Positions 9,452-45,113 of a DNA stretch of 64,000 nt are shown piece by piece. A program made the translations under genes and the position numbers. Origin of the DNA: Blastococcus sp. DSM 46786 (lineage in GTDB: Bacteria; Actinomycetota; Actinomycetes; Mycobacteriales; Geodermatophilaceae); the NCBI RefSeq assembly GCF_900109665.1, contig NZ_FOAO01000019.1, positions 1-64,000 on the forward strand. The letters run 5' to 3'. The notes below the pieces were generated by a model. That model was not told the DNA's origin. It searched no databases and saw only the letters and a list, made by a program, of their open reading frames with translations. Every line of letters begins with the position of its first letter. The stretch's first letter is position 1.

Positions 9452-9452
9452 C

Positions 9453-9505
9453 GAAGCGCCTCCTGCCCCCACCGCTCGCACCGGGCCCCTGCAGGAGGCC
9501 GTTCC
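9453..9505 (+). terminator. Nested hairpin element, copy 1
   Basis: Outer stem GCCTCCTGC (9458-9466) pairs with GCAGGAGGC (9491-9499); the enclosed part contains CCCCACCGCTCGCACC. It starts one base after the stop of the upstream plus-strand gene and ends at the stop of the convergent sortase gene. It shares the trailing GGCCGTTCC and the CTCCTGC stem with copy 2. In this copy the inner stem is imperfect. Confidence 0.7.
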
Positions 9506-9506
9506 C

Positions 9507-10127
9507 TCACGTCGCGAGACGGGCCCAGACGACGACGTTGTCCCGGTAGCTGCCCGTCGCGGCATCGAACTCCCCGCCGCAGGTGATCAGCCGGAGCTCG
9601 GCCCGGGGTGTCGGGCCGTAGACCTCCCGGGTCGGGAACCGGTCCTTCGGGAACCGTTCGGCACCGGTCACGGTGAAGCGCACCGTCGTGCCGTCGGCCT
9701 GGTCCACCAGCACCTCGTCGCCGGCCACCAGTTCGTCCAACCGGAAGAACACGGCGGGCCCGTCCCGGGAGTCGACGTGCCCGGCGATCACGGACGGCCC
9801 GACGGCACCGGGGGCCGGCCCCCCGGCGAACCAGCCGGCGCGGGTGTGGTCCGCGGGCGGCTCCAGGGCGCCGACGCCGTCGACGCCGAGTTCGACCAGC
9901 GGGCTGTCCACGCCGATCGCCGGGAGTCGCACCCGGACCGGCGATGCCGCCGTGACCGCGGTGCCGTACCCGGCCACCAGGGGGGCCGGTGAGTCCGCGA
10001 TGACCTCCGCCGCCGGAGGGTCCGCGTCGGGGGACACCAGTGCGACCGTGCCAGCGACCAGCGCGGTGCCGGCGAGCAGCCGCAGCAGCGTCGGTACGGA
10101 CCGTCGCGGCCGGCGGTGGGAGCCCAC
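9507..10127 (-). CDS. Class F sortase
   Basis: A 206-residue exported transpeptidase with an N-terminal signal anchor (LLRLLAGTALVAGTVALV, about 14-32) and a sortase beta barrel. The catalytic parts are visible: histidine in VIAGHVDS (about 115), cysteine in LITCGGEF (about 184) and arginine in SYRDNVVVWA (about 197). Class F sortases are typical of actinobacteria; their substrates are poorly known. The gene directly follows a DUF4397 protein gene (10-nt gap), which itself follows another anchored protein gene, so the three form an operon and the DUF4397 protein is the likely substrate. GTG start; weak Shine-Dalgarno. Confidence 0.9.
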   Translation of the reverse strand: MGSHRRPRRSVPTLLRLLAGTALVAGTVALVSPDADPPAAEVIADSPAPLVAGYGTAVTAASPVRVRLPAIGVDSPLVELGVDGVGALEPPADHTRAGWFAGGPAPGAVGPSVIAGHVDSRDGPAVFFRLDELVAGDEVLVDQADGTTVRFTVTGAERFPKDRFPTREVYGPTPRAELRLITCGGEFDAATGSYRDNVVVWARLAT

Positions 10128-10137
10128 CGGACCCGCC

Positions 10138-10998
10138 TCAGGAACCGGCGGCGTGCCGGGACGGGTCGCGGCGCGACCACGCAGCCAGCAGCAGGCCGGT
10201 GAGGAGCGTCAGACCCGCGGCGCCGGCCACGAGGGCGGGGAGCGGACCTCCGGCCCCCGCCGCCCCGCCGGCTCCCGCCTCCACACCGCCGGTCGGGACC
10301 ACGCCCGGGCCTGCGGCGTCCAGGACCGGGCGCACGGTCAGCCCGCCCCCTGGCTCGTCGAGGACGAACAGGCTGTACACGGAGCCGGGTGCCAGCTCCA
10401 GCGGCAGTTCGGTGGGCTCGCCGTCCACCGTCAGCTGCAACGATCCGGCATCGCCGGCCACGGTGGCGTAGTCGCCGGCCTCGGCGAACGCCAGGTCGGT
10501 GGCGAGGTCCGTGCCGCCGACGGCGGCGTCCAGCGTCAGCGCCGAGGCGGCGGCGGAGATGATCCGCACGCGGGCCTGGCCGGACGGCGCGAGCGTGAGG
10601 TCGTCCTCGAGCACCTCCAGGCCCAGATCGGCGAAGGGCCCGACCCCGGCGACGGTGCGCACGTCGCCGTCGCCGATCTCCACGGTGGTCGACAGGACCG
10701 CCGGAGCGGACGGGTCGGCGCCGGCCTGCCGCATGCTCACCGTGTAGACACCCGCCGGCACGTCCTGGTAGTCGGAGATGGTTCCGTAACCGACACCGGG
10801 CACGGTGAGCAGCGCCGTCCCGTCCCCCGGGTCGGCGACCGAGTCGACGTAGACGTCGACCGCCGGGGTGTCCGGTGAGAGGTGCGCCAGGCGCAAGAGC
10901 CCGGCGTCCTCGACGGCGGCCCCCGCGCCGGTGGGGGCGACGAGGAGGAAACCGGCACCGAGCGCGGCGACGGACAGCAGACGGATCAACCGGTCCAC
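10138..10998 (-). CDS. DUF4397-domain surface protein with C-terminal membrane anchor, likely sortase substrate
   Basis: A 286-residue exported protein. The signal peptide (RLIRLLSVAALGAGFLLVAP, cut near GAGA-AVED) is followed by a DUF4397 beta-sandwich (LLRLAHLSPDTPAVDVYVD, then VPAGVYTV; about 35-150) and a second beta-rich half (about 150-225). A Gly/Ala linker with GVVPTGGVEAG leads to a membrane helix (LVAGAAGLTLLTGLLLAAW) and a basic tail (SRRDPSRH). There is no LPxTG, but the linker-helix-basic tail order is that of a sorting signal, and a class F sortase gene is next door. The GTG at 10998 has TGGAG 5 nt upstream; a much longer open frame upstream is not coding. DUF4397 proteins are often found beside sortase F genes. 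Confidence 0.85.
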   Translation of the reverse strand: MDRLIRLLSVAALGAGFLLVAPTGAGAAVEDAGLLRLAHLSPDTPAVDVYVDSVADPGDGTALLTVPGVGYGTISDYQDVPAGVYTVSMRQAGADPSAPAVLSTTVEIGDGDVRTVAGVGPFADLGLEVLEDDLTLAPSGQARVRIISAAASALTLDAAVGGTDLATDLAFAEAGDYATVAGDAGSLQLTVDGEPTELPLELAPGSVYSLFVLDEPGGGLTVRPVLDAAGPGVVPTGGVEAGAGGAAGAGGPLPALVAGAAGLTLLTGLLLAAWSRRDPSRHAAGS

Positions 10999-11083
10999 AG
11001 TGGCTCCAGGAGTTCGGGATCGGACCGGGAAGAGGCCCTCGGCTCCATTCGGCCACTCCACGCGTCTTCTGTCCAACCGGGCG

Positions 11084-11968
11084 TCACGGGGTCCCTTCGG
11101 CGACGAGCGCGTCAGGGTCGGACGCGTAGCGGTAGGAGAGCAGGACGCCCTCCTCCACCACTTCGACGCGGTCGGGTGCGAACGGCGGGAGCTGGGCCTC
11201 CAGCCAGGTGCGCAGTCTCGCGGTGGCTGCTTTCCCGGCGCCGACCGGTGCGCTGCCCACGGCATCGATCAGCACGGTGCGCGCCGGCCCCTCGGCCCCC
11301 TCGACGCGCGGGAACGACGCCACGCCGACGCCCTCCCGGGCGGTGAGCACCGCCAGGAGGGACAGCAGCCGCATGTCCACGTCGGCCGATCGCAGCACCG
11401 CGGCGGCCTGCTCCCCGGCCCGCGCCGTGGGGTTGGCCAGCACCGCCTCGGCCAGCGCCCGCCGCCGTTCGAGGTGCTCCTGCGTCGGGGTGCCGGGGGA
11501 GGGGTCGCCCAGGACGAGTTCGTCGAAGCGGGCGACCACCCGGCCGCCGGGCTCTGCGGAGCCGTCGGTCACCGTGAGGACGAGGTCGTCCGGGCCAGTG
11601 GACCGGCCGGTCGCCAGCAGCTCGTCGCCTGCACCGGCGGCGCTCAGGTCGTCGCGCACGTCCCCCTCGGCGCGCAGCTGCGTGCCGGGAGGCAGTTCGC
11701 GGTCGGCCCAGTCCAGCAGGGCCGCTGCGGCGGGCGGGGCGGTGGCGCCGGTCCGGGGCGCGCTGCCGGTTCCGGGGACGGTGGTCGCCGTCGGGGCGCT
11801 GGACGGGGCAGGCCGCTCCGGCCCCGTCACCAGGGTCGCTGCCGCCGCGACCAGCACCGCGACGAGCGCCCCCACGAGGACGAACGGCGCGCGGCGGTCG
11901 CCGAGAGCCGCGCGGAGCGGCCCCACGGCGCGGTGCCGGGGGCGGTGCCGCGCGCTGCGGGTCGGCAC
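11084..11968 (-). CDS. Membrane-anchored secreted protein of unknown function
   Basis: A 294-residue protein with a basic N-terminus, one membrane helix (FVLVGALVAVLVAAAATLV, about 29-48) and a Thr/Pro/Ala-rich linker. The extracytoplasmic part (about 75-294) has a helix with an RRRALAEAVLANPTA pattern, then a mixed alpha/beta part (RLLSLLAVLTAREGVGVASF). The GTG at 11968 has GGAGGAGG about 7 nt upstream. It heads a three-gene set with the DUF4397 protein and sortase F (85-nt gap), so it probably works at the cell surface with them. I do not recognise the family. Confidence 0.7.
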   Translation of the reverse strand: MPTRSARHRPRHRAVGPLRAALGDRRAPFVLVGALVAVLVAAAATLVTGPERPAPSSAPTATTVPGTGSAPRTGATAPPAAAALLDWADRELPPGTQLRAEGDVRDDLSAAGAGDELLATGRSTGPDDLVLTVTDGSAEPGGRVVARFDELVLGDPSPGTPTQEHLERRRALAEAVLANPTARAGEQAAAVLRSADVDMRLLSLLAVLTAREGVGVASFPRVEGAEGPARTVLIDAVGSAPVGAGKAATARLRTWLEAQLPPFAPDRVEVVEEGVLLSYRYASDPDALVAEGTP

Positions 11969-12035
11969 CGCACCTCCTCCCCGGCGTCCGTGGACGGCTC
12001 GGCCCGCGGCTAGCGAGGCCGGTGGGCCACGGGCC

Positions 12036-13313
12036 TCAGCCCTGGGCCCGGACCGGCTGGTCGACGGAGTCGGTGGCCGGGTTCCCGGTCGCAGCGACCG
12101 CGTGGTCGGGCTGCTCCGTCGAGGTCGCGCCGCTGCCCGTCGGGCGTGGCGGCAGGGGCAGCGCCCGGGTGGTCGGCTCGGCACGCTGGACCGCGGGGAA
12201 GGTGGCGGTCACCGGCTCGGCGCGGGTGGGCTGGCGGGCCGCGGCGGCCTCGCCCTCGCCCCGGGCGGCCTGCACGACCGGCTGCTGCCCCGTCTGCGGC
12301 CCGGCGACCGGGGCGGGAGCCTGACGGGTGGGTGCCGGCGCCTCCGCGCGCTCCGACTGCGCGGCCTGGGCCGGCTGCGGAGCGGTGGTCGGCTGCGCCC
12401 CCGGCGGCTGGGGTGCCGACTGCGGGGCCGTGGTCTGCTGCCGGGCCGACTCGGTGGTGCGGGCGGTGGGCTGCGGGCGCCGCCCGGCGTCGGCGTCCTC
12501 GCGGGGCTGCTGCGGGCGGTCGCCCAGGTCGGGCAGGTTGTCCAGCAGGCGCCGGGCCTGCACCAGCCGGCTGGTGAGCTCGTCGCGGACCTCCCGGATG
12601 GCCTCGGCGCGGGCCTCGGCCTCGGCGACGAGCCCTGCTGCGTGCTGCTCCGCGGCGGCGATGCGCTGGCGCGCGGCCTGGGTGGAGACGCGCTCGCGCT
12701 CCTCCTCGACCCGCGCCGCCTCGGCTCGGCGGGCGCGCTGCGCGATGTCGAAGTCCTCCTCGACCTTGGCGCGACGGGCCTGCGACTCGGCGTCGAGCCG
12801 GGCGACCCGCTCCTGGGCCTTGGCGACCAGCTCGTCGGCGCGCTGCTGGGCCTTCTGCGCGATCTGCTCGGCGCTCTGCCGCGCCTCGGCGATCATCCGC
12901 TCGACCTCCGCCTGCCCGGCGGCGTGGCGCTCCAGCAGCGCCCGCTCCTCGGCGGCGGTCTGCTCGCGCACGGCCATCGCGTCGGCCTCGGCGGCGCGGC
13001 GGATCTCCCCCGCCTCCTCCTCGGCCAGCTGCAGCATGTGCTGGATGCGCTCGCTGATGTTCTCGAACGTGGGTGCGGCGGCGGTCGCGGCCTTGCGGCG
13101 GAGCGACTCGATCTCGCCGTGGAGCGCCGACAGCTGGCTGGCCAGGTCGGAGGAGCGCGCGACGGCGGCGTCACGGTCGGCGAGGGCGATGCGGAAGTCA
13201 GCCTCGAGCCGCTCGATCGTGTCGGCGACCTGGCTGCGGTCGTACCCCCGCAGGACCACGTCGAACGAGTGCTGCGCCTCGTGCACCGGCATGTCACGGC
13301 GGGGGTCGCTCAT
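12036..13313 (-). CDS. DivIVA/FilP-like coiled-coil protein
   Basis: A 425-residue protein. The N-terminus (HSFDVVLRGYDRSQVADTIE, about 14-33) is a DivIVA-type lipid-binding and dimer segment. A long coiled coil follows (about 35-270) rich in A, E, R and Q heptads (AEVERMIAEARQSAEQIAQK, RRAEAARVEEERERVSTQAA), then a Pro/Gln/Ala-rich disordered tail (about 285-425). Proteins of this kind (Streptomyces FilP/Scy, mycobacterial Wag31) mark cell poles or form cytoskeletal filaments that guide wall growth. The start is set at the ATG at 13313, which has GAGG 9 nt upstream; an ATG at 13322 is in frame. It could also be a generic actinobacterial 'cellulose-binding' coiled-coil protein; DivIVA itself is usually elsewhere. 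Confidence 0.8.
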   Translation of the reverse strand: MSDPRRDMPVHEAQHSFDVVLRGYDRSQVADTIERLEADFRIALADRDAAVARSSDLASQLSALHGEIESLRRKAATAAAPTFENISERIQHMLQLAEEEAGEIRRAAEADAMAVREQTAAEERALLERHAAGQAEVERMIAEARQSAEQIAQKAQQRADELVAKAQERVARLDAESQARRAKVEEDFDIAQRARRAEAARVEEERERVSTQAARQRIAAAEQHAAGLVAEAEARAEAIREVRDELTSRLVQARRLLDNLPDLGDRPQQPREDADAGRRPQPTARTTESARQQTTAPQSAPQPPGAQPTTAPQPAQAAQSERAEAPAPTRQAPAPVAGPQTGQQPVVQAARGEGEAAAARQPTRAEPVTATFPAVQRAEPTTRALPLPPRPTGSGATSTEQPDHAVAATGNPATDSVDQPVRAQG

Positions 13314-13457
13314 GGGTTCCATCCTCGCAGAAGGGCTGGGGCCCGTCACCGTCCCGGGCGTGGTCCGCCCCAGATGCACCGGGCGTCCCAGACGACACGC
13401 CGGGCGACGCGCGCAGGGGCCGGACCGCAGCCGCGGCCCGGCCCCGGGCGCCGTGCT

Positions 13458-13519
13458 GGAACGGCCCTCCTGCAGGCCCCGCCGCGAGCGTGCGCGCGGT
13501 GGGGGGCAGGAGGGTCCTT
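13458..13519 (-). terminator. Nested hairpin element, copy 2, after ccr
   Basis: Outer stem CCCTCCTGC (13465-13473) pairs with GCAGGAGGG (13506-13514). The inner stem is CCCCGCCGCG with CGCGGTGGGG around an 8-nt loop. Read on the minus strand it begins directly after the ccr stop with AAGGACC and ends with GGCCGTTCC. This is the same plan as copy 3 with different stem bases. Confidence 0.75.
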
Positions 13520-14851
13520 CTACACGCCGCGGAACCGGTTGATCGCCTCGATGTGCTTCTCGCGCTTCTCGGCGTCCTTGACGCCGAGCCCCTCCTCGGG
13601 GGCGAGGGTCAGGACGCCGACCTTGCCCTGGTGGGCGTTGCGGTGGACGTCGAGGGCGGCCTGGCCGACCTCCTCCATCGGGTAGACCTTCGACAGCGTC
13701 GGGTGGATGAGGCCCTTGTCGATGAGCCGGTTGGCCTCCCACGCCTCCTTGTAGTTGGCGAAGTGCGAGCTCAGGATCTTCTTGAGGTTCATCCAGAGGT
13801 ACCGGTTGTCGTACTCGTGCAGGTAGCCAGTGGTCGAGGCGCAGGTGATGATCGTGCCGCCCTTCTTGGCCACGTAGACGCTGGCGCCGAAGGTCTCCCG
13901 GCCGGGGTGCTCGAAGACGATGTCGACGTCCTCGCCGCCGGTGAGCTCACGGATCTTCTTGCCGAGGCGCTGCCACTCCTTGGGGTCCTGGGTGTCGTCG
14001 TCCTTCCAGAACTGGTAGCCCTCGGCCGAGCGGTCGATGACCAGTTCGGCGCCCATCTTGCGGACGATCTCGGCCTTCTCGGGGCTGCTCACCACGCACA
14101 CCGGGATCGCGCCGCCGTTGAGCGCCATCTGGGTGGCGTACGAGCCCAGGCCGCCCGAGGCGCCCCAGATGAGCACGGTGTCGCCCTGCTTCATGTTGGC
14201 GCCGTTCTTGCTCACAAGCTGGCGGTAGGCGGTCGAGTTGACCAGGCCCGGGCTCGCGGCCTCCTCCCACGTGAGGTGGGCGGGCTTGGGCATGAGCTGG
14301 TTGCTCTTGACCAGCGCCAGCTCCGCGAGGCCGCCGAAGTTGGTCTCGAAGCCCCAGATGCGCTGCTGCGGGTCCATCATCGTGTCGTCGTGGCCGGCCG
14401 GGTCCTCGAGCTCCACCGAGAGGCAGTGCGCGACGACCTCGTCGCCCGGCTTCCACTTGTTGACCCCGGGGCCCACGCGCAGCACGACGCCGGCGAGGTC
14501 CGAGCCGACCACGTGGTAGGGCAGGTCGTGCCGCTTGGTGAGCTCGGAGACGCGGCCGTAGCGCTCGAGGAAGCCGAAGGTGGAGACCGGCTCGAAGATC
14601 GACGTCCAGACGGTGTTGTAGTTCACCGAGGAGGCCATGACGGCCACGATCGCCTCGCCCGGGCCGAGCTCCGGGGTCGGGACCTCCTCGACGTGGAGGG
14701 ACTTGCGCGGGTCCTTCTCCTTGGTGGGCAGGCCCACGAACATGTCCTGCTCGTCCTTGCGGACCAGCACGGCGCGGTAGGACTCCGGCACGGCCAGGCC
14801 GCCGAGGGCGTCCAGCTGGTCGGCGAGGATGGCGTCCCTGATCTCGTTCAC
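13520..14851 (-). CDS. ccr: Crotonyl-CoA carboxylase/reductase
   Basis: A 443-residue medium-chain dehydrogenase/reductase. It reductively carboxylates crotonyl-CoA with NADPH and CO2 to (2S)-ethylmalonyl-CoA, the committing step of the ethylmalonyl-CoA pathway and also the source of ethylmalonyl units for polyketides. The full-length match to Ccr includes the substrate entrance (SSVNYNTVWTSIFEPVSTFG), the CO2-site phenylalanine/asparagine region (NQLMPKPAHLTWEEAAS), the nucleotide motif IWGASGGLGSYATQ and the Ccr-specific HEYDNRYLWMNLKKILSSHF. The GTG start has AGGAG 5 nt upstream. It lies 102 nt downstream of an epimerase gene on the same strand; that pairing makes sense because Ccr makes the 2S and Ecm uses the 2R isomer. 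A nested hairpin follows the stop. Confidence 0.95.
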   Translation of the reverse strand: MNEIRDAILADQLDALGGLAVPESYRAVLVRKDEQDMFVGLPTKEKDPRKSLHVEEVPTPELGPGEAIVAVMASSVNYNTVWTSIFEPVSTFGFLERYGRVSELTKRHDLPYHVVGSDLAGVVLRVGPGVNKWKPGDEVVAHCLSVELEDPAGHDDTMMDPQQRIWGFETNFGGLAELALVKSNQLMPKPAHLTWEEAASPGLVNSTAYRQLVSKNGANMKQGDTVLIWGASGGLGSYATQMALNGGAIPVCVVSSPEKAEIVRKMGAELVIDRSAEGYQFWKDDDTQDPKEWQRLGKKIRELTGGEDVDIVFEHPGRETFGASVYVAKKGGTIITCASTTGYLHEYDNRYLWMNLKKILSSHFANYKEAWEANRLIDKGLIHPTLSKVYPMEEVGQAALDVHRNAHQGKVGVLTLAPEEGLGVKDAEKREKHIEAINRFRGV

Positions 14852-14953
14852 GCGAACTCCTGGGTCGTCGGTGGCCGTGTCGGCCGGCTCGGAGGGCGGT
14901 GCAGGTGCGGGTGCGGAGAGGTTACCGGTGGGTAACCGCGCGGGTCGGGGTGG

Positions 14954-15424
14954 TCAGTGCGCGGTGCCCGCGGCCGGCTCGACGAGCTCGACCAGGACGC
15001 CGCCGGCGTCTTTGGGGTGGACGAAGTTCACCCGGCTGTCCGACGTGCCGCGCCTGGGCGTGTCGTAGAGCAGCCGCAGGCCGCGCTCGCGCAGCGTCGC
15101 GCTGACCGCCTCGACGTCGTCGACCCGGAAGGCGAGCTGCTGCAGGCCGGGCCCCGAGCGGCCGATGAACTTGGCGATGGTGGACTCCGGGGTCAGCGGC
15201 GCGAGCAGCTGGATCCGGGTCTCACCGGTGCCGACGGCGAGCATCGCCTCGCGGACGCCCTGCTCCTCGTTGGTCTCCTCGTGCACCGAGTGCACCCCGA
15301 AGGCCCGGGCGTAGAAGGCGATCGCCTCGTCCAGGTCCGGGACGGCGATGCCCACGTGGTCGATGGTCGTCAGCAGGCCCTCGGGCAGCCCGGGGCGCTC
15401 GGCGTCGTTGCTCACGCCAGGCAT
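14954..15424 (-). CDS. mce: Ethylmalonyl-CoA/methylmalonyl-CoA epimerase
   Basis: A 156-residue vicinal-oxygen-chelate protein with two beta-alpha-beta modules. The metal ligands of the epimerase family are visible: H in TIDHVGIAVPD, Q in GLQQLAFRVDD (preceded by RIQLLAPL) and E in GGVLVELVEP. It swaps the 2S and 2R forms of methylmalonyl-CoA and, in organisms with Ccr and Ecm, ethylmalonyl-CoA. The adjacent ccr supports that dual role. I chose the ATG at 15424; a GTG at 15415 is equally possible, and a longer frame to 15478 is not supported. It is divergent from the acetyltransferase gene, with 203 nt between them; apart from possible promoters nothing else is seen in that gap. Confidence 0.9.
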   Translation of the reverse strand: MPGVSNDAERPGLPEGLLTTIDHVGIAVPDLDEAIAFYARAFGVHSVHEETNEEQGVREAMLAVGTGETRIQLLAPLTPESTIAKFIGRSGPGLQQLAFRVDDVEAVSATLRERGLRLLYDTPRRGTSDSRVNFVHPKDAGGVLVELVEPAAGTAH

Positions 15425-15627
15425 AGTGCCGTCAAGACGTCTGAGACGACAGGTCGGTGTGGCAGGCCTCACCCCCACGGCGTGACCTCGGCCACTCGTC
15501 CGGCCCTGCCGCGTGTCGGGCGACCGTCCTATCCTTCCCGGAAGGCCCGACGCCGCGCCGGTATCGCCGTCGCGGTGCGTCCCGACAACGTGGTCGCCAC
15601 CGGCGGCGGCCCGGCACTGGAGGCAGC

Positions 15628-17852: not shown

Positions 17853-17913
17853 CGCTGACCGCGCAGGTCGGGCGCCCACCGGCCAGGATGGGACGGGTGA
17901 ACGGACTACGGCA

Positions 17914-25397: not shown

Positions 25398-25455
25398 CGG
25401 GCGGTTCCTCCACGTGCGGCGCGGGCGTGCGCCGCACAGCATGCCACCGGTGACG

Positions 25456-25522
25456 TGCTGGAACGGCCACCCTTCAGGGCCCCACGCCGAGCGTGCGAGG
25501 CGTGGGGGGAAGGGTGGTCCTT
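25456..25522 (-). terminator. Nested hairpin element, copy 3, after glgB
   Basis: Outer stem CCACCCTTC (25467-25475) pairs with GAAGGGTGG (25509-25517). Inner stem CCCCACGCC (25480-25488) pairs with GGCGTGGGG (25499-25507) around a 10-nt loop that reads TCGCACGCTC on the minus strand. It starts right after the glgB stop with AAGGACC and ends with GGCCGTTCCAGCAC, as copy 2 does. Both stems are perfect. Confidence 0.8.
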
Positions 25523-28441
25523 CTACTCGTGCAGGAACCAGACGGTGCCCAGGGGAGGTGCGGAGATGGTCGCCGAGTACGGCTGGCCGTGCCAGGGCTC
25601 CGGCTCGGCCTCGATCCCGCCGTAGTTGCCGACGCCGGACCCGCCGTACCCCTCGCCGTCGGAGTTCAGCACCTCGCGCCACTGACCGGGGCGGGGCAGC
25701 CCGATGCGGTACTCGTGGTGGGGGGCGCCGGAGAAGTTGACGACGCAGGCCAGCGCCGAGCCCTGCGCGGCCTCCTCGGCGGCCCCGTCCTCGACGGGAG
25801 CGGCGGGGCCGGCGCCCTGCGGCGCGGCGCCGTAGCGGAGGAAGGAGAGCACGTTGCCCGAGGCGTCGTTGGCGTCGATCCACTGGAACCCGGCCGGGTC
25901 GACGTCCAGCGACCAGAGGGCGTCGAGCTCCTTGTAGCGGCCGTTGAGGTCGGTGACCAGCTGCAGGATGCCGCGGTGCGCGGGGTCCTCGAGGTGCCAC
26001 CAGTCCAGCGAGCGGCTCTCCGCCCACTCCGAGTCCTGGGCGAACTCCGACCCCATGAACAGCAGCTGCTTGCCCGGGTGGGCCCACATGTAGGCCAGGT
26101 AGGCCCGCAGGTTGGCCAGCTGCTGCCAGCGGTCCCCGGGCATCTTCCGCAGCATCGAGCCCTTGCCGTACACGACCTCGTCGTGGCTGATCGGCAGGAC
26201 GTAGTTCTCGCTGTACGCGTAGTGCATCGAGAACGTGAGCTGGCCGTGGTGGTAGCTGCGGTAGATCGGCTCGCGCTCGACGTAGGCGAGCGAGTCGTGC
26301 ATCCAGCCCATGTTCCACTTGAACCCGAAGCCCAGGCCGCCCAGGTGGGTGGGCCGGGTGACCCCCGGCCAGGCGGTGGACTCCTCGGCGATCGTCATGA
26401 CGCCGGGGACCTCGCGGTAGACGGTGGCGTTGAACTCCTGCAGGAAGGCCACCGCCTCCAGGTTCTCCCGGCCGCCGTACTTGTTGGGCAGCCACTCGCT
26501 GCGGGAGTAGTCCAGGTAGAGCATCGAGGCCACCGCGTCCACGCGGATGCCGTCGATGTGGAACTCCTTGCACCAGTACAGCGCGTTGGCGACCAGGAAG
26601 TTGCGGACCTCGGAGCGGCCGAAGTCGAAGACGTAGGTACCCCAGTCCAGCTGCTCGCCCCGGCGCGGGTCACCGTGCTCGTAGAGCGGCGTGCCGTCGA
26701 AGCGCGCCAGCGCCCACTCGTCCTTGGGGAAGTGGGCGGGCACCCAGTCGACGATGACGCCGATGCCGGCCTGGTGCGCCCGGTCGATCAGGTAGCGCAG
26801 GTCGTCCGGGGAGCCGTAGCGGGACGTCGGCGCGTAGTAGGAGGTGACCTGGTAGCCCCAGGAGCCGCCGAACGGGTGCTCGGCCAGCGGCATGAACTCG
26901 ATGTGGGTGAACCCGGCGTCGCGGACGTAGTCGACGAGTTCGTCGGCCATCTCGCGGTAGGACAGCCCCTGGCGCCAGGAGCCGGCGTGCACCTCGTAGA
27001 CGCTCATCGGCCGCTGGTGCCAGCCGGCCTCGGCCCGCTGCTCGAGCCAGCTGTCGTCGGCCCACTCGTAGGTGGACTCGGTGACGACGGAGGCGTTCAG
27101 CGGCGGCACCTCCGTGGCGAAGGCGAGCGGGTCGGCCTTCTCCCGCCAGGTGCCGTCGGCGCCCAGGACGTGGTAGCGGTACCGGGTGCCGACCTGCGCA
27201 CCCGGGATGAAGATCTCCCAGACGCCGGAGGACCCGAGCATCCGCATGGGGTAGGCGCGGGCCTCCCAGTAGTCGAAGTCGCCGGTGACCTTGACGCCCT
27301 GGGCGCTGGGCGCCCAGACGGCGAAGGAGACACCCTCGACGGTGCCGCGCGGGGTCTCGTAGCGCCGGACGTGCGCGCCGAGCACCTCCCACAGCCGCTC
27401 GTGGCGTCCTTCGCGGATGAGGTGCTCGTCGACCGGCCCGAGGGTGGGCAGCCAGCGGAAGGGGTCGTCGACCGTGTGCGTCGTGGTCCCGCCCTGGCCG
27501 TCGCCGTAGACGACCTCGATCCGGTAGTCCCCGGGCTGGCGCGGGAGCGACGCCTCGTAGACGCCGCCGCCATGCAGCTGCGCCGCCTCGTAGCGGCTCC
27601 CGTCCTCGTCGAGGACGGCGACGCTGACGGCGTCCGGGCGCAGCGTGCGCACCGCCCAGCCGTCGGCGGTGCGGTGCGCGCCGAGGATGCGGTGCGGGTC
27701 GCGCGACCAGCCCTCGACGATCGCCCGGAGGTCGTCCTCGCCGAACTCCTCGACGTCGGCGTCCCCGGCCGCGCCGGCGGTGGTGCCGCCCGCGGGGGAG
27801 CCGTCGCCGGTCGGGGCATCGGCGGTCGGGGTGCCGGCGGTCGGGATGCCGGCGGTCGGGGTGTCCGCGGTCGGGGCATCCCCGGTCGGGGTGCCGGCGG
27901 TGGACGGGGCGTCGGCCGGGAGGACCGGCGCCGCGGGCTCCGCGGACCCGTCGGAGGCCGCCCGGTCCTCGTCCGGGGCCTGCGGGGTGGGCGGCGTCGC
28001 CGGGTCGGGGTCGGGGGCCACCGGCTGGCCGGCCGGGGCGCCGGTGCCGTCACCGGGCTCGGCGATCGGTGCCGGTGCGACCACCGGGTTGGCGGTGACC
28101 TCGGTGTCCTCGCCGCCCTGCTCCGGGGTGGCCTCGGTGGCGGTGGGCGCGGCGGCGACCTTCTTGGCCGTCGACCGCTTCGCCGCCGTCGCCTTCGTGT
28201 CGGTGGCCGCCTCGGCCGGCGCGGCCTTCTTCGCCGGGGCCGCCTTCTTGGCGGCCGCGGTCTTCTTCGCGGGCGCCGCCTTCTTGGCCGCGGCCCGCTT
28301 GGTGCTCTTCCTGGCCGGCTCGGCGTTCACCGGCGGCTCGCTGCCCGCGGCCGCCTCCGCCTGCGCCACCTTCTCCTCCACGGCGCGCTGCAGATCGTCC
28401 TTGCCGGCCACGGGGCTCTCGCCTCGGTCGTCGGTCGTCAT
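25523..28441 (-). CDS. glgB: 1,4-alpha-glucan branching enzyme with an extended, lysine/alanine-rich N-terminus
   Basis: A 972-residue protein. GlgB is usually about 730 residues; here the first 235 or so are extra. Residues about 20-115 are a Lys/Ala/Pro histone-H1-like stretch ([20 protein letters not shown]). Then comes an acidic Pro/Thr linker with a pentapeptide repeat ([15 protein letters not shown]). The core follows: an N1 carbohydrate module, CBM48 ([20 protein letters not shown]), and the GH13 barrel with nucleophile D in GIRVDAVAS, acid E in TIAEESTAW and D in [10 protein letters not shown]. It makes alpha-1,6 branches in the glucan built by GlgE. It is last in the treS-mak-glgB run, 53 nt after mak. 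AAGGA sits about 10 nt before the ATG. The enzyme call is firm; the extension has no known role. Confidence 0.93.
27806..27895. repeat. Six 15-nt tandem units inside the glgB 5' extension
   Basis: Units read GGCGGTCGGGGTGCC with small changes and keep the frame, encoding (A/G)-(D/G)-x-P-T pentapeptides. The copy number may vary between strains by slippage. Confidence 0.75.
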
Positions 28442-31676: not shown

Positions 31677-31701
31677 CGGGAGCGGGTTCCCCTCTCGGGA
31701 G

Positions 31702-31753
31702 AAGGACCCCGTCCTCCCCACCCTTCGCAGGCTCAGGGCGGGACCCGGGACGG
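31702..31753. terminator. Nested hairpin element, copy 5, between glgE and treS
   Basis: Outer stem CCGTCC (31709-31714) with GGACGG (31748-31753); inner stem CCCACCCT (31717-31724) with AGGGCGGG (31735-31742, one G-U); loop TCGCAGGCTC. On the plus strand it starts with AAGGACC, so its orientation is opposite to the flanking genes, unlike the other copies. It could reduce read-through from glgE into treS. Confidence 0.65.
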
Positions 31754-31771
31754 AGCCGGAGATCGATCTCT

Positions 31772-33805
31772 TCAGGAGACGGGTGTGGGGAACTGGACGG
31801 GTCGCGGGAAGCTGAGCGAGAAGACGTGCGCCGGCTCCCGGTAGGGGTCGAGCTCCACGTAGTTGAACTGGCCCCAGTCGTAGCGGGCACCGGTCAGCTC
31901 GTCGGTGACGCCGAAGCGCTCGTGCCAGTCCAGGCCGAGCGCCGGGAGGTCCAGCGCCGTCGTCCCGATCTGCGTGTCCCGGCTGGACAGGTTCACGATG
32001 ACCAGGACGGCGTCGTCGGACGCCGGGTCGGTCTTGGAGAAGCAGAGCAGGTTCGGGTTGTCGACCTGGTGGAACCGCAGCGTGCGCAGCTGCTGCAGCG
32101 CCGGGTGGGCACGCCGCACCTCGTTGAGCCGCCGCAGGTAGGGGGCGAGGCTCCGCCCCGACGCCTCGGCGCCGGCCCAGTCGCGGGGGCGCAACCGGTA
32201 CTTCTCGCTGTCCAGGTACTCCTCGCTGCCCGGCTTCACCGCCACGTGCTCGAACAGCTCGAAGCCGGAGTAGACGCCCCAGGTCGGGCTCATCATCGAC
32301 GCGAGCACGGCGCGGATCTTGAACATCGGCGGGCCGCCGAACTGCAGCGACTCGTGCAGGATGTCCGGGGTGTTCACGAAGAAGTTCGGCCGCATGTAGT
32401 GGCTGTTGGCGGCCAGCTCCCGGCCGTACTCCTCCAGCTCTTCGCGCCCGGTCCGCCAGGTGAAATAGGTGTAGGACTGCGTGAAGCCGAGCCGGGCGAG
32501 CTGGTGCATCATCGCCGGCCGGGTGAACGCCTCGGCGAGGAAGAGCACGTCGGGGTGGCTCTGCTTGACGTCCCAGATCAGCCAGTGCCAGAAGTTCAGC
32601 GGCTTGGTGTGCGGGTTGTCGACGCGGAAGATCGTCACGCCGGCGTCGATCCACACCTGGAGCACCCGGCGGCACTCGGCGTAGATGCCCTCGGGGTCGT
32701 TGTCGAAGTTGACCGGGTAGATGTCCTGGTACTTCTTCGGCGGGTTCTCCGCGTAGGCGATCGTGCCGTCGGGCTTGGTGGTGAACCACTCCGGGTGCTC
32801 GGCCACCCAGGGGTGGTCCGGGGCCGCCTGGAGCGCGAAGTCCAGGGCCACCTCCATGCCCAGCTCGCGGGTGCGGGCGACGAAGGCCGTGAAGTCGTCC
32901 ATCGTGCCCAGCTGCGGGTGGACGGCGTCGTGCCCGCCCTCGGCGCTGCCGATCGCCCACGGCGAGCCGACGTCGTCCGGACCGATCTCGTGCGGGTTGC
33001 CGCCGGGGAACTGGCTGGAGTTCGGCCCCTTGCGGTTCACCGTGCCGATCGGGTGGATCGGCGGCAGGTACACGACGTCGAAGCCCATGTCGGCGACGGC
33101 GGGCAGCCGGTCGGCGGCCGTGGTGAAGGTGCCGTGGGTGGGCACCCCGGCCACCACCGGGCCCTCCGACCGCGGGAAGAACTCGTACCAGGAGCCGAAG
33201 AGGGCCTCCTCGCGGTCCACCCACACCTCGTAGCGCGGCGACCGGGTGACCAGCTCGCGCACCGGGTGCTCGTGCAGGTAGCGCTGCAGGCCGGCGGCGA
33301 GCGCCGGGGCGATCCGGACGGTGAGCTCCTGCGAGGTGTCCCGCAGCGCGGCGGCCGCGGCCTCGACGCGGCCCCGCCACTCGTCGTCGGCCTCCGCGGC
33401 CACGCGGTCGAGCAGCCGGGCGCCCTCCTCGAGGTCGTTGGCCAGCTCGTCCGGGCCCTGGCCGGCCTCGACCTTCACCTCGACGGCGTGCCGCCAGGTG
33501 GCCAGCGGGTCGCTCCACGCCTCGACGCGGAAGGTCCACCGCCCCTCGCGGTCGGGCACGACCGTGGTGAGCCACCGGTCCGGTTCGGGGGGCAGCTTCG
33601 CCATGCGCAGGAAGGGCCCGCTCGCCTCGTCGCCGCCCGGCGGCGTCCAGACGACGTTGGCCGCGACGGCGTCGTGGCCCTCGCGGAAGACGGTGGCGGT
33701 GATCGGGACGTGCTCGCCGATCACGGCGCGGGCGGAGAAGGACCCGCAGGACACGACGGGGGCGACATCGGTGATGCCGAGGCGGAGATCAGGGCGGCCA
33801 GTCAT
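31772..33805 (-). CDS. glgE: Alpha-1,4-glucan: maltose-1-phosphate maltosyltransferase
   Basis: A 677-residue GH13_3 enzyme that adds maltosyl units from maltose-1-phosphate to an alpha-1,4-glucan. Domain N (about 1-125; beta sandwich), the helical insert S (about 130-190) and the barrel with GlgE-specific [15 protein letters not shown] and nucleophile D in [16 protein letters not shown], then acid E in [10 protein letters not shown], are all present. It is the third enzyme after TreS and Mak, and GlgB then branches the product. It is first in its strand's glgE-treS-mak-glgB order, with a leaderless promoter (TAGCGT) and a hairpin before treS, so it may be partly a separate unit. In M. tuberculosis GlgE loss poisons cells by maltose-1-phosphate build-up. 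Confidence 0.95.
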
Positions 33806-37581: not shown

Positions 37582-37592
37582 GCCCAAGCGTT

Positions 37593-37639: not shown

Positions 37640-37695
37640 TACGACGTCTCCCGGCTCTCTCGACGGCTCCGGCCGGCGTGAGGTGGGATGCGCCC

Positions 37696-38217: not shown

Positions 38218-38220
38218 CCG

Positions 38221-40371
<2,151 letters not shown>

Positions 40372-40441
40372 CGGGCGATCGTGCCTGGTCCCCGCCCGCA
40401 GCGGGCGCACCGACCGGCGCGAGGGTTGGTTGGATGGGGGC

Positions 40442-41248
40442 GTGCCGAATGCTGACGCCCTCGCGGGGGCGGTCGTACGGATGACCGGGGTCGACGTCGT
40501 GCGGGGCGAGAACCACCTGCTCCGCGGCGTCGACTGGGTGGTGGAGGAGGACCACCGCTGGGTCGTCCTCGGCCCCAACGGGGCGGGGAAGACCACGCTC
40601 CTGCAGTTGGCCGCCGCGCAGCTGCACCCGACGCGGGGCGAGGTGCGGCTGCTGGGCGAGACGCTCGGCGCCGTCGACGTCTTCGAGCTGCGGCCCCGCA
40701 TCGGGCTGACCAGCGCCTCGCTCGCCCAGCGGATCGCGCCGTCGGAGAAGACCGGCGACATCGTCGTCTCGGCCGGCTACGCCGTCGTCGGCCGGTGGCG
40801 GGAGCGCTACGACGTCCACGACCTGACCCGGGCCGGGCTGCTCATGGCGCAGTGGGGCGTGGCCCAGTACGCGCACCGGCCGTTCGGCACGCTCAGCGAG
40901 GGGGAGCGCAAGCGCACCCAGATCGCCCGTGCGCTGATGCCCGATCCCGAGCTGCTGCTGCTCGACGAGCCCGGTGCGGGCCTCGACCTCGGGGGGCGCG
41001 AGGACCTCGTGGCCCGGCTGTCGGACCTGGCGCGGTACCACTACGCGCCCGCGCAGGTACTGGTCACCCACCACGTCGAGGAGATCCCGCCGGGCTACAC
41101 CCACGCGCTGCTGCTGCGGGAGGGGGAGGTCGTGGCCTCCGGCGCGGCCGACGACGTCCTCACCGCCGGGCACCTCTCCGACACCTTCGGGCTCCCGCTC
41201 GAGCTCAGCCGCACCGATGGCCGCTTCACCGCTCGCCGGGCTCGCTAG
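40442..41248 (+). CDS. ABC-transporter ATP-binding protein (ModF/YlmA-like, stand-alone)
   Basis: A 268-residue ABC ATPase with Walker A (GPNGAGKT, about residues 47-54), signature FGTLSEGERKRTQIARALM, Walker B (ELLLLDEPGAGLDL) and switch histidine (VLVTHHVEEIP). No permease or binding protein is next to it. The inserted VGRWRERYDVHDLTRAGLLM segment and the single domain match the actinobacterial YlmA/ModF-like group, whose role is unclear. GTG start at 40442; start assignment moderate. Its TAG stop doubles as the first bases of the next gene's -10 box. Confidence 0.85.
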   Translation: MPNADALAGAVVRMTGVDVVRGENHLLRGVDWVVEEDHRWVVLGPNGAGKTTLLQLAAAQLHPTRGEVRLLGETLGAVDVFELRPRIGLTSASLAQRIAPSEKTGDIVVSAGYAVVGRWRERYDVHDLTRAGLLMAQWGVAQYAHRPFGTLSEGERKRTQIARALMPDPELLLLDEPGAGLDLGGREDLVARLSDLARYHYAPAQVLVTHHVEEIPPGYTHALLLREGEVVASGAADDVLTAGHLSDTFGLPLELSRTDGRFTARRAR

Positions 41249-41251
41249 GGT
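41246..41251 (+). promoter_or_regulatory. -10 box (TAGGGT) for the enoyl-CoA hydratase gene, overlapping the upstream stop codon
   Basis: TAGGGT ends 7 nt before the ATG at 41259. Its first three bases are the stop codon of the upstream ABC gene. Confidence 0.5.
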
Positions 41252-41258
41252 GCCGTCC

Positions 41259-42047
41259 ATGGCATCGACGCCCGAGTTCGTGACCCTGCAGGTGGCCGAC
41301 GCGGTGGGCACCATCCGCCTCGACCGGCCGAAGATGAACGCGATCGACGAGCAGCTGCACAGGGAGGTCAGGGCCGCGGCGCTCGAAGCCGGGGAGCGGG
41401 CCGACGTGCGCGCCGTCGTGCTCTACGGCGGCGAGCGGGTCTTCGCCGCGGGCGCCGACATCAAGACGATGTCGCAGCTGGACGGGCGGTCGATGGAGGC
41501 CTGGGGCCGCGAGCTGCAGAACTCCTTTCGCGCGGTGGCGCAGATCCCGAAGCCGGTCATCGCCGCGGTCACCGGCTACGCGCTGGGCGGTGGCTACGAG
41601 CTGGCGCTGTGCGCGGACTTCCGGGTGCTCGGCGCGGGCGCGAAGGTCGGCCAGCCCGAGATCCTGCTCGGCATCATCCCGGGCGCCGGCGGCACCCAGC
41701 GGCTGGCCCGGCTGGTCGGCCCGGCCCGGGCCAAGGACCTGGTCTTCACCGGCCGGCACGTCGGCGCGGAGGAGGCCCTGGAGATGGGGCTGGCCGACGC
41801 CGTCGTCCCCGACGCCGAGGTCTACGACACCGCGCTGGCCATGGCGCGCAAGCTCGCCGCCGGCCCGCCGCTGGCCCTGGCCGCCGCGAAGCGGGCGATC
41901 GACGAGGGGCTGGACCTGCCCCTGGACCAGGGGCTGGACCTGGAGAGCCGGCTGTTCACCGAGCTGTTCGACACCGAGGACCAGCAGTCCGGGATGCGCT
42001 CGTTCCTGGAGAGCGGCCCGGGCAAGGCCGAGTTCAGCGGCCGCTGA
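41259..42047 (+). CDS. Enoyl-CoA hydratase (crotonase)
   Basis: A 262-residue crotonase with both catalytic glutamates in place: E114 (GGGYELALCADFR) and E134 (GQPEILLGIIPGAGGTQRL), spaced as in rat enoyl-CoA hydratase, plus oxyanion-hole motifs (FAAGADIKTM; ALGGGYE). It adds water to 2-enoyl-CoA, such as crotonyl-CoA or longer. It could supply or drain crotonyl-CoA for the ccr pathway 26 kb away, but the co-transcribed partner is a cysteine-degrading type enzyme, so the link is open. A Cds1-like gene starts 6 nt after its stop. Confidence 0.92.
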   Translation: MASTPEFVTLQVADAVGTIRLDRPKMNAIDEQLHREVRAAALEAGERADVRAVVLYGGERVFAAGADIKTMSQLDGRSMEAWGRELQNSFRAVAQIPKPVIAAVTGYALGGGYELALCADFRVLGAGAKVGQPEILLGIIPGAGGTQRLARLVGPARAKDLVFTGRHVGAEEALEMGLADAVVPDAEVYDTALAMARKLAAGPPLALAAAKRAIDEGLDLPLDQGLDLESRLFTELFDTEDQQSGMRSFLESGPGKAEFSGR

Positions 42048-42053
42048 ACCGGC

Positions 42054-43166
42054 GTGGACGACGTCGTCGACCGGTCCGACCCCGGCGGCCGGGCCTGGGT
42101 CGACCGGGCGGTCGCCGTCGTCGAGGCCGACGCGCGGCGGAGCGCTGACACGCACCTGCTGGTCTACCCGCTGCCGCCCGAGTGGGGCGTCGACCTCTAC
42201 CTGAAGGACGAGTCGACCCACCCCACCGGCAGCCTCAAGCACCGGCTGGCCCGGTCGCTGTTCCTGTACGGGCTCTGCTCCGGGCAGATCACCGAGGGCA
42301 GCACGGTCGTCGAGGCCTCCAGCGGGTCGACGGCGGTGAGCGAGGCCTACTTCGCCCGCATGCTCGGCCTGCCCTTCGTCGCGGTGATGCCGCGCTCCAC
42401 CAGCCCGGAGAAGATCGCGCTCATCGAGTTCCACGGCGGCCGGTGCCACTTCGTCGACCGGGCGCCCGACATCTACGAGGAGGCCCGCCGGCTGGCCGCC
42501 GACTGCGGGGGCCACTACCTCGACCAGTTCACCTACGCGGAGCGGGCCACCGACTGGCGCGGCAACAACAACATCGCCGAGTCGATCTTCGAGCAGCTCG
42601 CCGCCGAGCGGCACCCGGTCCCCGAATGGGTCGTCGTGGGCGCCGGCACGGGAGGCACGAGCGCCACCATCGGCCGGTACATCCGCTACCGCCGCCACCC
42701 CACCCGGCTGGCCGTCGTCGACCCGGAGAACTCCGCCTTCCTGCCCGGTTACGCGGCCGGCGACCCCGCGTGGACCACCGGGACCCCGTCGCGGATCGAG
42801 GGCATCGGCCGGCCGCGGGTCGAGCCCTCGTTCGTCCCGACGATCGTCGACCGGATGATCGGCGTGCCGGACGCCGCCTCGCTGGCGGCCATGCGGCACC
42901 TGGAGCGGGTGACCGGGCGCCGGGCGGGCGGGTCCACGGGCACCAACCTGTGGGGGGCCTTCGGCTTGGTCGCCGAGATGGTCGCCGCGGGCCGCCGCGG
43001 GAGCGTCGTGACGCTGCTGTGCGACGGCGGCGAGCGGTACGCGCGCACGTACTACTCCGACGACTGGGTGGCGGCCCAGGGGCTGGACCTGGCGCCGCAC
43101 GAGGAGACGCTCGAGCGGTTCGCCGCGGCGGGGGAGTGGGCGACCCCACCGGTCACTCCGGCGTGA
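42054..43166 (+). CDS. PLP-dependent L-cysteine desulfhydrase-like protein (Cds1 type)
   Basis: A 370-residue fold-type II PLP enzyme. The PLP lysine lies in [20 protein letters not shown] (about residue 60), and the phosphate-binding loop is [19 protein letters not shown]. Full-length similarity to the M. tuberculosis Rv3684/Cds1 family suggests hydrogen sulfide release from cysteine, though many members are annotated as cysteine synthase. Arguments against a synthase: no serine acetyltransferase nearby, and the family's long C-terminus ([11 protein letters not shown]). It starts with GTG 6 nt after the crotonase stop, so the two are co-transcribed. Confidence 0.8.
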
Positions 43167-43210
43167 TGTGCCTCACCCGCCCCTCGTGCCGCGGCGGCGT
43201 TACCCCGCAG

Positions 43211-43216
43211 TAGCCT
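43211..43216 (+). promoter_or_regulatory. Candidate -10 box (TAGCCT) for etfBA with a 5' leader
   Basis: TAGCCT lies 66 nt before the etfB ATG; here the gene has a Shine-Dalgarno, so a leader RNA of about 60 nt is likely. In it CTGAAC (43253-43258) can pair with GTTCAG (43273-43278), placing the Shine-Dalgarno in the loop. Confidence 0.4.
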
Positions 43217-43282
43217 CCATCATCAGAGCCAGGCGGGCCTCGTGCCCGCATCCTGAACGCGTCCTGAGGAAGGTTCAGCGCG

Positions 43283-44062
43283 ATGAACATCGTCGTTCTT
43301 GTCAAGCAGGTCCCGGACTCGGGAAGTGAGCGGAAGCTGGACCCGGCCGACAACACCGTCGACCGGGCGGCTGCCGACAACGTGATCAACGAGATGGACG
43401 AGTACGCCATCGAGGAGGCGCTCACCCTCAAGGAGGCGCAGGGCGGCGAGGTCACCGTGCTGACCGTCGGCCCCGAGTCCGCCACCGACGCCATCCGCAA
43501 GGCGCTGTCCATGGGCGCCGACAAGGCCGTGCACGTCATCGACGACGCGATCCACGGCTCGTGCGCGGTGCAGACCTCCGCGGTTCTCGCCGCGGCGCTG
43601 GGCCAGATGGAGTACGACCTGGTCATGTGCGGCGCGGAGGCCACCGACGCGCAGCTGTCGGTCATGCCCGCCCTGCTCGCCGAGCGCCTCGGCCTCCCGC
43701 AGCTCTCCGGGGCCCGCAAGGTCACCATCGAGGGCGGCACCGCGAAGGTGGAGCGGCAGACCGACGGCGGCTTCTGGGCTCTCGAGGCCCCGCTCCCGGC
43801 GATCATCTCGACCTGGGACACGATCAACGAGCCGCGCTACCCCTCGTTCAAGGGGATCATGGCCGCGAAGAAGAAGCCGGTGGAGACCAAGACCCTGGCC
43901 GACCTGGGCGTCGACGCCGGCAGCGTCGGCCTGGCCAGCGCCACCAGCAAGGTGCTCGACTTCGCCGGCCGCCCGCCGAAGGGCGAGGGCGTCAAGGTGA
44001 CCGACGAGGGCGACGGCGCGCAGAAGTTCGTCGACTACCTCGCCGGCCAGAAGATCGTCTGA
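43283..44062 (+). CDS. etfB: Electron transfer flavoprotein beta subunit
   Basis: A 259-residue ETF beta chain. Typical features: MNIVVLVKQVPDSGSERKL start, the DEYAIEEALTLKE segment, AMP-binding region (GADKAVHVIDD, LVMCGAEATDAQ) and the recognition-loop-like region with IISTWDTINEPRYPSFKGIM. With EtfA it carries electrons from acyl-CoA dehydrogenases to the membrane quinone pool. That fits the acyl-CoA genes in the first third of the window. AGGAAGG lies 8-9 nt before the ATG. etfA starts 34 nt downstream. Confidence 0.96.
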   Translation: MNIVVLVKQVPDSGSERKLDPADNTVDRAAADNVINEMDEYAIEEALTLKEAQGGEVTVLTVGPESATDAIRKALSMGADKAVHVIDDAIHGSCAVQTSAVLAAALGQMEYDLVMCGAEATDAQLSVMPALLAERLGLPQLSGARKVTIEGGTAKVERQTDGGFWALEAPLPAIISTWDTINEPRYPSFKGIMAAKKKPVETKTLADLGVDAGSVGLASATSKVLDFAGRPPKGEGVKVTDEGDGAQKFVDYLAGQKIV

Positions 44063-44096
44063 CCCCGCCCGGATCGAAGGAAGAGGAGAACACCCC

Positions 44097-45059
44097 ATGG
44101 CAGAGGTCCTGGTCCTTGCCGAGCTCAACCCGGCCGGTGGCGGCGTCCGCAAGACCACCCTGGAAGCCCTGACCGCGGCGCGCGCGCTCGGTGAGCCGTC
44201 GGCCGTCGTCCTCGGTGCGCCGGGCACGGCCGCCGGCGTGAAGGACGTCCTCGCGGAGTACGGCGCCGCGACCGTCTACGTCGCCGAGTCCGAGGACGTC
44301 GAGGCCTACCTGGTGGCCCCCAAGGCCGAGGTGCTGGCGCAGCTGGTGAGCGAGAAGTCGCCCGCCGCCGTCGTCATCCCCTCCTCGCCGGAGGGCAAGG
44401 AGATCGCCGCCCGCCTGGCCATCAAGACCGGCAGCGGCTTCCTCACCGACGTCACCGAGATCGCCTCCGACGGCACCGCCACCCAGGCGGCGTTCGCCGG
44501 GGCGACCATCGTGCACTCGCAGGTGACGGTCGGCACCCCGATCTACACGCTCCGCGGCAACTCGGTCACCCCCGAGCCGGCCCCGGCCGCCGGTGCCGAG
44601 CAGACCGTGGACGTCGCGGTGAGCGACGCGGCCAAGCAGGTCCGCGTCGTCGAGCGCGTCGTCGAGCAGAAGAGCAACCGTCCCGAGCTCACCGAGGCCT
44701 CGATCGTCGTCTCCGGTGGCCGCGGTGTGGCCAGCGCCGAGAACTTCTCGATCATCGAGGGCCTGGCCGACTCGCTCGGTGCGGCCGTCGGTGCCTCGCG
44801 CGCCGCGGTCGACTCCGGCTTCTACCCGCACAGCTTCCAGGTGGGGCAGACCGGCAAGACCGTCTCCCCGCAGCTGTACGTGGCCGTCGGCATCTCCGGT
44901 GCCATCCAGCACCGCGCCGGCATGCAGACCAGCAAGACGATCGTCGCCATCAACAAGGACCCCGAGGCGCCGATCTTCGAGCTGGCCGACTTCGGGGTCA
45001 TCGGTGACCTGAACACGGTCGTGCCGGCCGCCACCGAGCAGATCAACGCCCGCAAATAA
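44097..45059 (+). CDS. etfA: Electron transfer flavoprotein alpha subunit
   Basis: A 320-residue ETF alpha chain with the FAD-binding C-terminal domain: [60 protein letters not shown], then [20 protein letters not shown]. It holds the FAD that takes electrons from the dehydrogenase. The Shine-Dalgarno is AAGAGGAG, about 8 nt before the ATG. It ends with TAA, rare here, followed at once by a nested hairpin (copy 4). Confidence 0.96.
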
Positions 45060-45063
45060 AACA

Positions 45064-45113
45064 CCCCGTCCCCCTCACGCCTCGCTCCGCTCGGCGTGAG
45101 CCTCTGGACGGGG
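45064..45113 (+). terminator. Nested hairpin element, copy 4, after etfA
   Basis: Outer stem CCCCGTCC (45064-45071) with GGACGGGG (45106-45113); inner stem CTCACGCC (45074-45081) with GGCGTGAG (45093-45100); loop TCGCTCCGCTC. Both stems are perfect, and it begins 4 nt after the etfA stop. Further palindromic GC-rich sequence follows up to about 45170. Confidence 0.8.

Follow-up and report, generated by a model that had tools for sequence, protein, structure and literature searches.

Nested-hairpin repeats at stop codons of Blastococcus: a probable family of small mobile palindromes in the Geodermatophilaceae

Repetitive extragenic palindromes (REPs) are described as high-copy palindromes of 20-40 bp that lie mostly 3′ of genes, have alternative complementary stems, tolerate GT pairs and carry an unpaired end able to supply a stop codon, with CGTC families reported to have no dedicated transposase (Di Nocera 2013, PMC3733652); the word Actinobacteria does not occur in the main text of that paper. 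In Escherichia coli, REPs are reported to stall ribosomes when they lie within 15 nt of a stop codon (PMC12306157), and the mycobacterial interspersed repetitive units (MIRUs) are described as elements with a coupled open reading frame (ORF) that insert at start codons (PMC12548453). Here we analyse five nested hairpins in a 64,000-nt stretch of Blastococcus sp. DSM 46786 (contig NZ_FOAO01000019.1, positions 1 to 64,000), hereafter the window, which has 74% G+C. Integron attC sites bear a likeness to them, as imperfect hairpins after stop codons in which one strand is preferred and structure is kept while sequence varies. We consider it quite probable that the five hairpins are small non-autonomous mobile palindromes of the Geodermatophilaceae, in kind like REPs or miniature inverted-repeat transposable elements (MITEs). 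They are not simply conserved transcription terminators, because their stems often differ between close relatives.

An initial annotation of the window had picked out five intergenic sites, starting at 9453, 13458, 25456, 31702 and 45064, as copies of one design. This observation is confirmed, as a single covariance model matches all of them:

Copy 1: 9449..9517, plus strand in the direction of the initial annotation (the model match is on the minus strand), nested hairpin with a degenerate inner stem, 41.1 bits
Copy 2: 13446..13524, minus strand, nested hairpin with tail, 84.7 bits
Copy 3: 25448..25527, minus strand, nested hairpin with tail, 99.4 bits
Copy 4: 31697..31777, plus strand, nested hairpin, 50.5 bits
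Copy 5: 45056..45135, plus strand, nested hairpin with a degenerate tail, 52.2 bits

Below, F denotes the reading direction of that annotation and R the complementary strand, antisense to the gene that ends next to the element. The training set of the model consisted of 57 copies, read as R, from this genome and its relatives; copies 2 and 3 match it by construction, because both are among the 57. In the 4.59 Mb genome (47 contigs; G000, in which the window is contig C42) it finds at least 138 matches at E ≤ 0.1, all except two of them below 0.001. This count comes from the best 150 of 12,370 candidates, so that the true number may exceed 138; within tandem arrays, some matches are partial units that overlap one another. 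The genome holds 41 instances of the exact pattern AAGGACC-N20-50-GGCCGTTCC and one of the reversed pattern, and 40 of these 41 form nested hairpins when folded (the exception is L004, on contig C6); thus the five-site family is not due to chance. Rfam 15 gives no match above its gathering score in the window despite the five copies there, and no description of this repeat was found in the titles and abstract beginnings of the open-licence literature. As far as our searches show, the family is undescribed and represents a variant of small mobile palindromes.

Leaving out seven matches without clear anchors, 131 anchored copies define the unit. Read in F, it comprises a T/A-bearing lead of the TAG, TGA or TGAnG type, AAGGACC, the outer stem, the inner stem and the loop, followed by an unpaired CCCTG bulge, the second strand of the outer stem and GGCCG, to which only the long form adds the tail TTCCAGCACGTCACC; the unit measures about 57 nt, or about 75-80 nt with the tail. 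The letters of AAGGACC are 83-96% conserved under an anchoring rule that itself allowed up to two mismatches to this motif. At the left end we find GTAG in 19 copies, CTAG in 11, nTGA in 16, nTAA in 5 and TGAnG in 23. The right end is of two kinds, with the tail matched at 11 or more of 16 positions in 54 copies and not in the other 77; CGTC occupies tail positions 13-16 in 28 of the 131. The GGCCGTTCC-like end that had been taken as common to the five window sites is clear at 9453, 13458 and 25456 and degenerate or missing at 31702 and 45064. Similarly, the loop described as near-constant keeps its TCGC-NN-GCTC flanks around a free middle, or is replaced by a three-nucleotide form. On R the loop has GA on both sides (C-GA...GA-G) in 95 of 123 aligned rows, and the three-letter loops (n = 20) read GGA in 12 cases, GAA in 6 and GCA and TTC once each, i.e. 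19 of 20 are GNA. Tandem G.A pairs, like GNA triloops, have an unusually high stability.

The search for the tail listed 80 places, and the tail is present at least twice downstream of 13 of the 138 matches; at some of these sites the 3′ half of the hairpin is repeated as well. Two loci are possible variable-number repeats: L184 (C23:373,900-374,280), with about four like units of the 3′ half at C23:374199, and L176 (C24:50,880-51,100), with tandem copies of the element's 3′ half.

Genes were called with a home-made finder based on codon usage. The stop of a coding ORF lies between -30 and +6 nt of AAGGACC in 86 of the 131 anchored copies, and for 80 of these the distance is within -2 to +3 nt (0 in 34 copies, 2 in 30). 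Some of the 45 copies for which no such stop was called may still follow real stops, because the finder misses small genes. Eleven of the 45 nevertheless follow a TAG, indicating that the target or end sequence matters besides the stop function. For the stop-adjacent copies the next gene is codirectional in 68 cases, convergent in 17 and absent from the stretch in one; in 20 of the 138 matches both neighbours are called on the strand opposite to F. The next gene begins no more than 60 nt away in 37 of the 68 codirectional cases, one such copy preceding a gene that we take, from its reading, to be hisG-like. Where the next gene is more than 60 nt away, another perfect hairpin of at least 10 pairs follows within about 130 nt in 19 of 38 stop-adjacent copies, compared to 1 of 38 and 1 of 37 in controls, 2 in shuffled sequences and 1 of 47 where the gene is nearer. 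Over all stop-adjacent copies, downstream hairpins with loops of up to 18 nt number 20 of 86 against 1 of 85, 1 of 85 and 1 of 86 (shuffled), and those with loops of up to 9 nt 8 of 86 against 0-1 of 85-86 in the controls. By analogy with the REPs of E. coli, an effect on ribosome stalling is possible for the Blastococcus repeat.

The mobile character is suggested by comparisons of the same stops between close relatives. At the tsf-pyrH junction, compared in 23 genomes of the genus (G000-G022), a forward copy sits at the tsf stop in five (G000, G004, G010, G011 and G013) and a reverse-type copy in two (G007 and G019), while in the 16 genomes without a copy the tsf stop is followed by a short spacer and a native hairpin-bearing stretch. 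Three of these copy-less sites (G003, G005 and G017) show a weak model score of 21-23 bits nearby. In G000 the native hairpin is retained downstream of the element. On a two-gene tree the five forward copies need 5 changes and all seven copies need 7. At some sites the element supplies or alters the stop codon itself (glgB, and tsf in G004), and scar-like remnants, resembling the two ends of the element after loss of the hairpin, were seen by eye at the ccr-like gene in G007, at C12:134653 in G019 and at C12:127992 in G018. The tsf-pyrH sites L265 (G019) and L276 (G007) are mixed, having a forward-like lead and a reverse-type copy in place of the native hairpin.

Of 75 stop-adjacent copies, the 40 with the highest scores were compared with the corresponding stops in two sister species, G018 and G019. 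A copy of the same orientation is present at the same stop in 23 (G018) and 20 (G019) cases, no copy in 15 and 16, and a reverse or other arrangement in 1 and 3, with one site in each sister giving no match. Both empty and filled orthologous sites therefore occur, as is found for small non-autonomous mobile elements. At stops where both genomes carry a copy with a paired outer stem, these stems were counted as clearly different if both arms are at least three edits apart and as the same if they lie within one edit. Clearly different stems were found at 7 of 22 shared stops for G000-G018 (10 same, 5 between), at 6 of 14 for G000-G019 (5 same, 3 between) and at 3 of 11 for G018-G019 (7 same, 1 between). 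The divergence of two genes among these sisters is 2.4-3.7%, at which matched stem changes of this size would be hard to achieve via single substitutions in the time available; replacement by a different member of the family, or loss and re-insertion, would be the simplest reading. Gains, losses, scars and stem exchange can all be followed at common stops in three sister species, which makes this a tractable case.

These exchanges bear on how the covariation is to be read. The alignment, fitted to the covariance model, comprises 127 matches, which come from the window and from 98 of the 117 loci retrieved from its own genome and include a few overlapping or opposite-strand ones. In its 123 distinct rows 95.2% of the cells are paired, and pairing falls to 44-54% when the strands are slid by 1-3 columns. 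Cells in which both sides differ from the commonest pair number 364, compared to 99.6 ± 7.1 in shuffles, and changes on both sides occur in 17 of 24 pairs. This bears out the view that the outer stems vary yet stay paired, and that the element is a small repeat whose structure is kept while its sequence varies. As the paralogous copies are not independent, the covariation shows that stem pairing is maintained across the family and not how the changes came about. Much of it lies between family members, because the outer stems of sisters often clearly differ at the same stop. It is weaker evidence for selection at each locus than the initial annotation assumed, because stems are exchanged as blocks between alternative family members. 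More generally, covariation among dispersed copies may stem from exchange of whole palindromes, without stepwise selection per locus.

The two strands differ in stability. For the same 57 sequences the consensus energy is -42.7 kcal/mol as R and -27.6 kcal/mol as F. With RNA parameters R is more stable in 129 of the 131 anchored copies and F in 1; with DNA parameters these numbers are 114 and 11. Both the consensus energies and the 131 single folds were obtained without the covariance model. In the alignment R carries 293 G.U against 36 A.C cells, or 103 against 35 without the two richest pairs. At least four T in the 8 nt after the stem are found in 95 of 131 copies on R and in 2 of 131 on F, and a TTTT run within 15 nt after the stem is rare on both (3 and 0 of 131). 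The sense-direction hairpin is strong as well, with a mean of -30.8 kcal/mol on F.

We propose that integration takes place 3′ of a short target containing T/A; in DNA of this G+C content such a target would mostly be a stop codon and a harmless place. Copies at occupied sites would be exchanged through recombination or re-insertion, and copies would be lost via deletion of the hairpin. The selected structure may reside on the R strand, as RNA or single-stranded DNA. Probable side effects would be a stop resembling an intrinsic terminator for transcripts entering the 3′ end of the gene, and a hairpin in the 3′ untranslated region of the sense mRNA. If the element terminates at all, the transcripts ended by it are likely to be those running into the gene. 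A more specific version is tentative and in our view rather doubtful, namely that this is a stop-codon-seeking hairpin of an undescribed kind, moved as a single-stranded R hairpin by a machinery that is neither Y1 nor reverse transcriptase, with whole stems exchanged between occupied sites; in this version the tandem G.A pairs and GNA triloops may stabilize the hairpin.

Several observations weigh against the mobile-palindrome reading. The polarity of the changes was assigned by parsimony, using a tree in which 8 of 20 inner branches have good support and which is thus resolved in part. Some of the exchanges could be due to short tracts of recombination with other species, and the stem is the same in about half of the shared copies. 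Junctions are ragged, the native sequence they replace ranging from about 0 to 80-110 nt, and inspection by eye at the window loci and the sister sites showed no target duplication; for both reasons insertion is inferred from its outcomes. The outer variable stem alone is even between the strands (12 G.U and 9 A.C cells), and a model built on R may favour R in later alignments. Finally, the Y1 transposase domain PF01797 is found in none of 112 family genomes, with 5 of 14 control genomes positive and other transposase families not searched. For the IS91-type Y2 transposase the result is 0 of 23 genus genomes, which is uninformative since no control was positive.

Among the rival explanations, the initial annotation favoured a conserved terminator of the upstream gene, in which the hairpin of the sense mRNA would end transcription after the stop. 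The strong sense hairpin, its position after stop codons and the replacement of a native hairpin by copy 3 at glgB are consistent with this idea, and G+C-rich hairpins after stops are indeed a feature of intrinsic terminators. It is nevertheless improbable, as copies are gained, lost and exchanged between sisters, with no copy at more than a third of the compared orthologous stops in either sister, and as the few T residues after the sense stem, the short distances to codirectional genes and the further hairpin in half of the longer gaps all stand against it. Shared sequence outside the stems and mobility further distinguish the repeat from intrinsic terminators. If the repeat acts as a terminator, it is better suited to the antisense direction relative to the adjoining gene, in which a T-rich stretch follows the stem. 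The element could thus face the gene, halt antisense or convergent transcripts before they enter its 3′ end and be kept for that reason, which would be compatible with a mobile repeat. The greater stability and G.U excess of R, the T-rich tract lengthened by the T/A letters of the stop codon itself and the presence of TGTTTTAT directly after the stem in the antisense reading of copy 5 (45056) argue for such a role, and antisense 3′ ends would be expected on the GGTCCTTC side. Fast turnover, the many orthologous stops without a copy, the small share of convergent pairs among the stop-adjacent copies (17 of 86) and the rarity of TTTT runs on R argue against it, and we hold it to be a serious possibility with somewhat less than an even chance. 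Taken as a whole, the first interpretation is partly supported.

The remaining alternatives concern the mover. A classical REP would be mobilized by a REP-associated tyrosine transposase (RAYT), an IS200/IS605-like Y1 transposase. The hairpin shares with GTAG REPs, as reported for them, an unpaired TAG-like end able to supply a stop (PMC3733652), yet PF01797 is missing from the 23 genus genomes as it is from the whole family set, and GTAG forms the left end in only 19 of 131 copies; a GTAG-REP with its RAYT was accordingly rejected, and we judge this origin highly unlikely. Copying in the manner of a short interspersed nuclear element (SINE), in which the 3′ end of an R-strand RNA pairs with the stop codon and primes target-directed reverse transcription, would account for a fixed F left end combined with two alternative right ends (although anchoring at the left end exaggerates its sharpness), for the G.U bias on R and for RNA 3′ letters CUA/UCA that are complementary to TAG/TGA. 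We regard this too as very unlikely: the reverse transcriptase domain PF00078 is present in only 4 of 23 genomes (G000, G006, G018 and G022), does not track copy number, and is without a match in G019, which has its own tsf copy. A reverse transcriptase domain (PF00078) lies at L364 (G000:C21:24804-25460).

Compared with the described systems, the repeat resembles the GTAG and CGTC super-families of REPs in its high copy number, its position at coding-ORF stops, its alternative paired stems, its GT pairs and an unpaired end able to supply the stop, and it resembles the CGTC families also in that no dedicated transposase is reported for them. It differs from these REPs in its larger units (about 57-80 nt) with nested stems, in having no conserved unpaired GTAG or CGTC end (19 and 28 of 131) and, relative to the GTAG REPs, in the lack of a Y1 gene among the 112 genomes. 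Like the MIRUs, compared here by description only, it is a short and apparently mobile actinomycetotal repeat at gene junctions; unlike them, it occupies the stop and not the start codon. The likeness to attC sites is likewise one of description, and the Blastococcus repeat is dispersed.

The covariance-model search proposed by the initial annotation also retrieved copies from relatives. Matches were found in 101 of 112 Geodermatophilaceae genomes, scoring the best 41 candidates per genome, with Geodermatophilus, Blastococcus, Modestobacter, Klenkia and Goekera among the named carriers. Within the 23 genus genomes G001 has none, G016 2, G006 5, G020 13 and G022 25, and most of the others have at least about 41 each; elsewhere in the Geodermatophilaceae set, G028 is likewise without a scored copy. 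Among 246 genomes of the class (best 19 candidates each, E 1e-5) only the own genome matched and the other 245 did not. Exact-pattern matches outside the Geodermatophilaceae, among 116 stretches listed, have outer stems of at most 4 bp and were taken as chance, as was one Coriobacteriales record with a five-bp outer stem and a weak fold. The family thus appears, as far as our searches show, to be specific to the Geodermatophilaceae. In a lineage with no REP transposase family detected, both what moves the element and what it does to gene ends can be investigated directly.

In the window, four of the copies had been described as starting within 4 nt of a stop codon in the orientation of that gene. 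In four cases a correctly oriented TGA, TAG or TAA does precede the copy by 0-4 nt, with the reservation that the TGA at 9449, to the left of copy 1, is not confirmed as a gene end by the gene calls; copy 4 points the opposite way to glgE (stop at 31772). The stop of a convergent sortase gene (9507) falls within the right end of copy 1, and G021 has a different copy in the same place. Copy 2 begins right after the TAG of a zinc-type dehydrogenase gene (13520-14851), presumably ccr, where the sister G018 has a different copy and G019 a remnant. Copy 3 begins right after the TAG of glgB (25523-28441) and replaces the last glgB codon, the stop and a hairpin-bearing stretch that are present in G006, G008, G018, G019, G020 and G021. 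A similar copy occupies the place of copy 4 in G019. Copy 5 follows the TAA of etfA (44097-45059), a stop that has no copy in G006, G008, G019 and G020 and a different copy in G021.

Other palindromes accompany some elements. Next to copy 4, between about 31753 and the glgE stop, lies the short palindrome GAGATCGATCTC, which is present in G019 too. A second long palindrome with the ends GGCATAGGAAGCT / AGCTTCCTATGCC and a different middle lies just downstream of two elements, at L262 (element G000:C4:143698-143778) and L213 (element G000:C2:47579-47656), and possibly represents a second repeat family.

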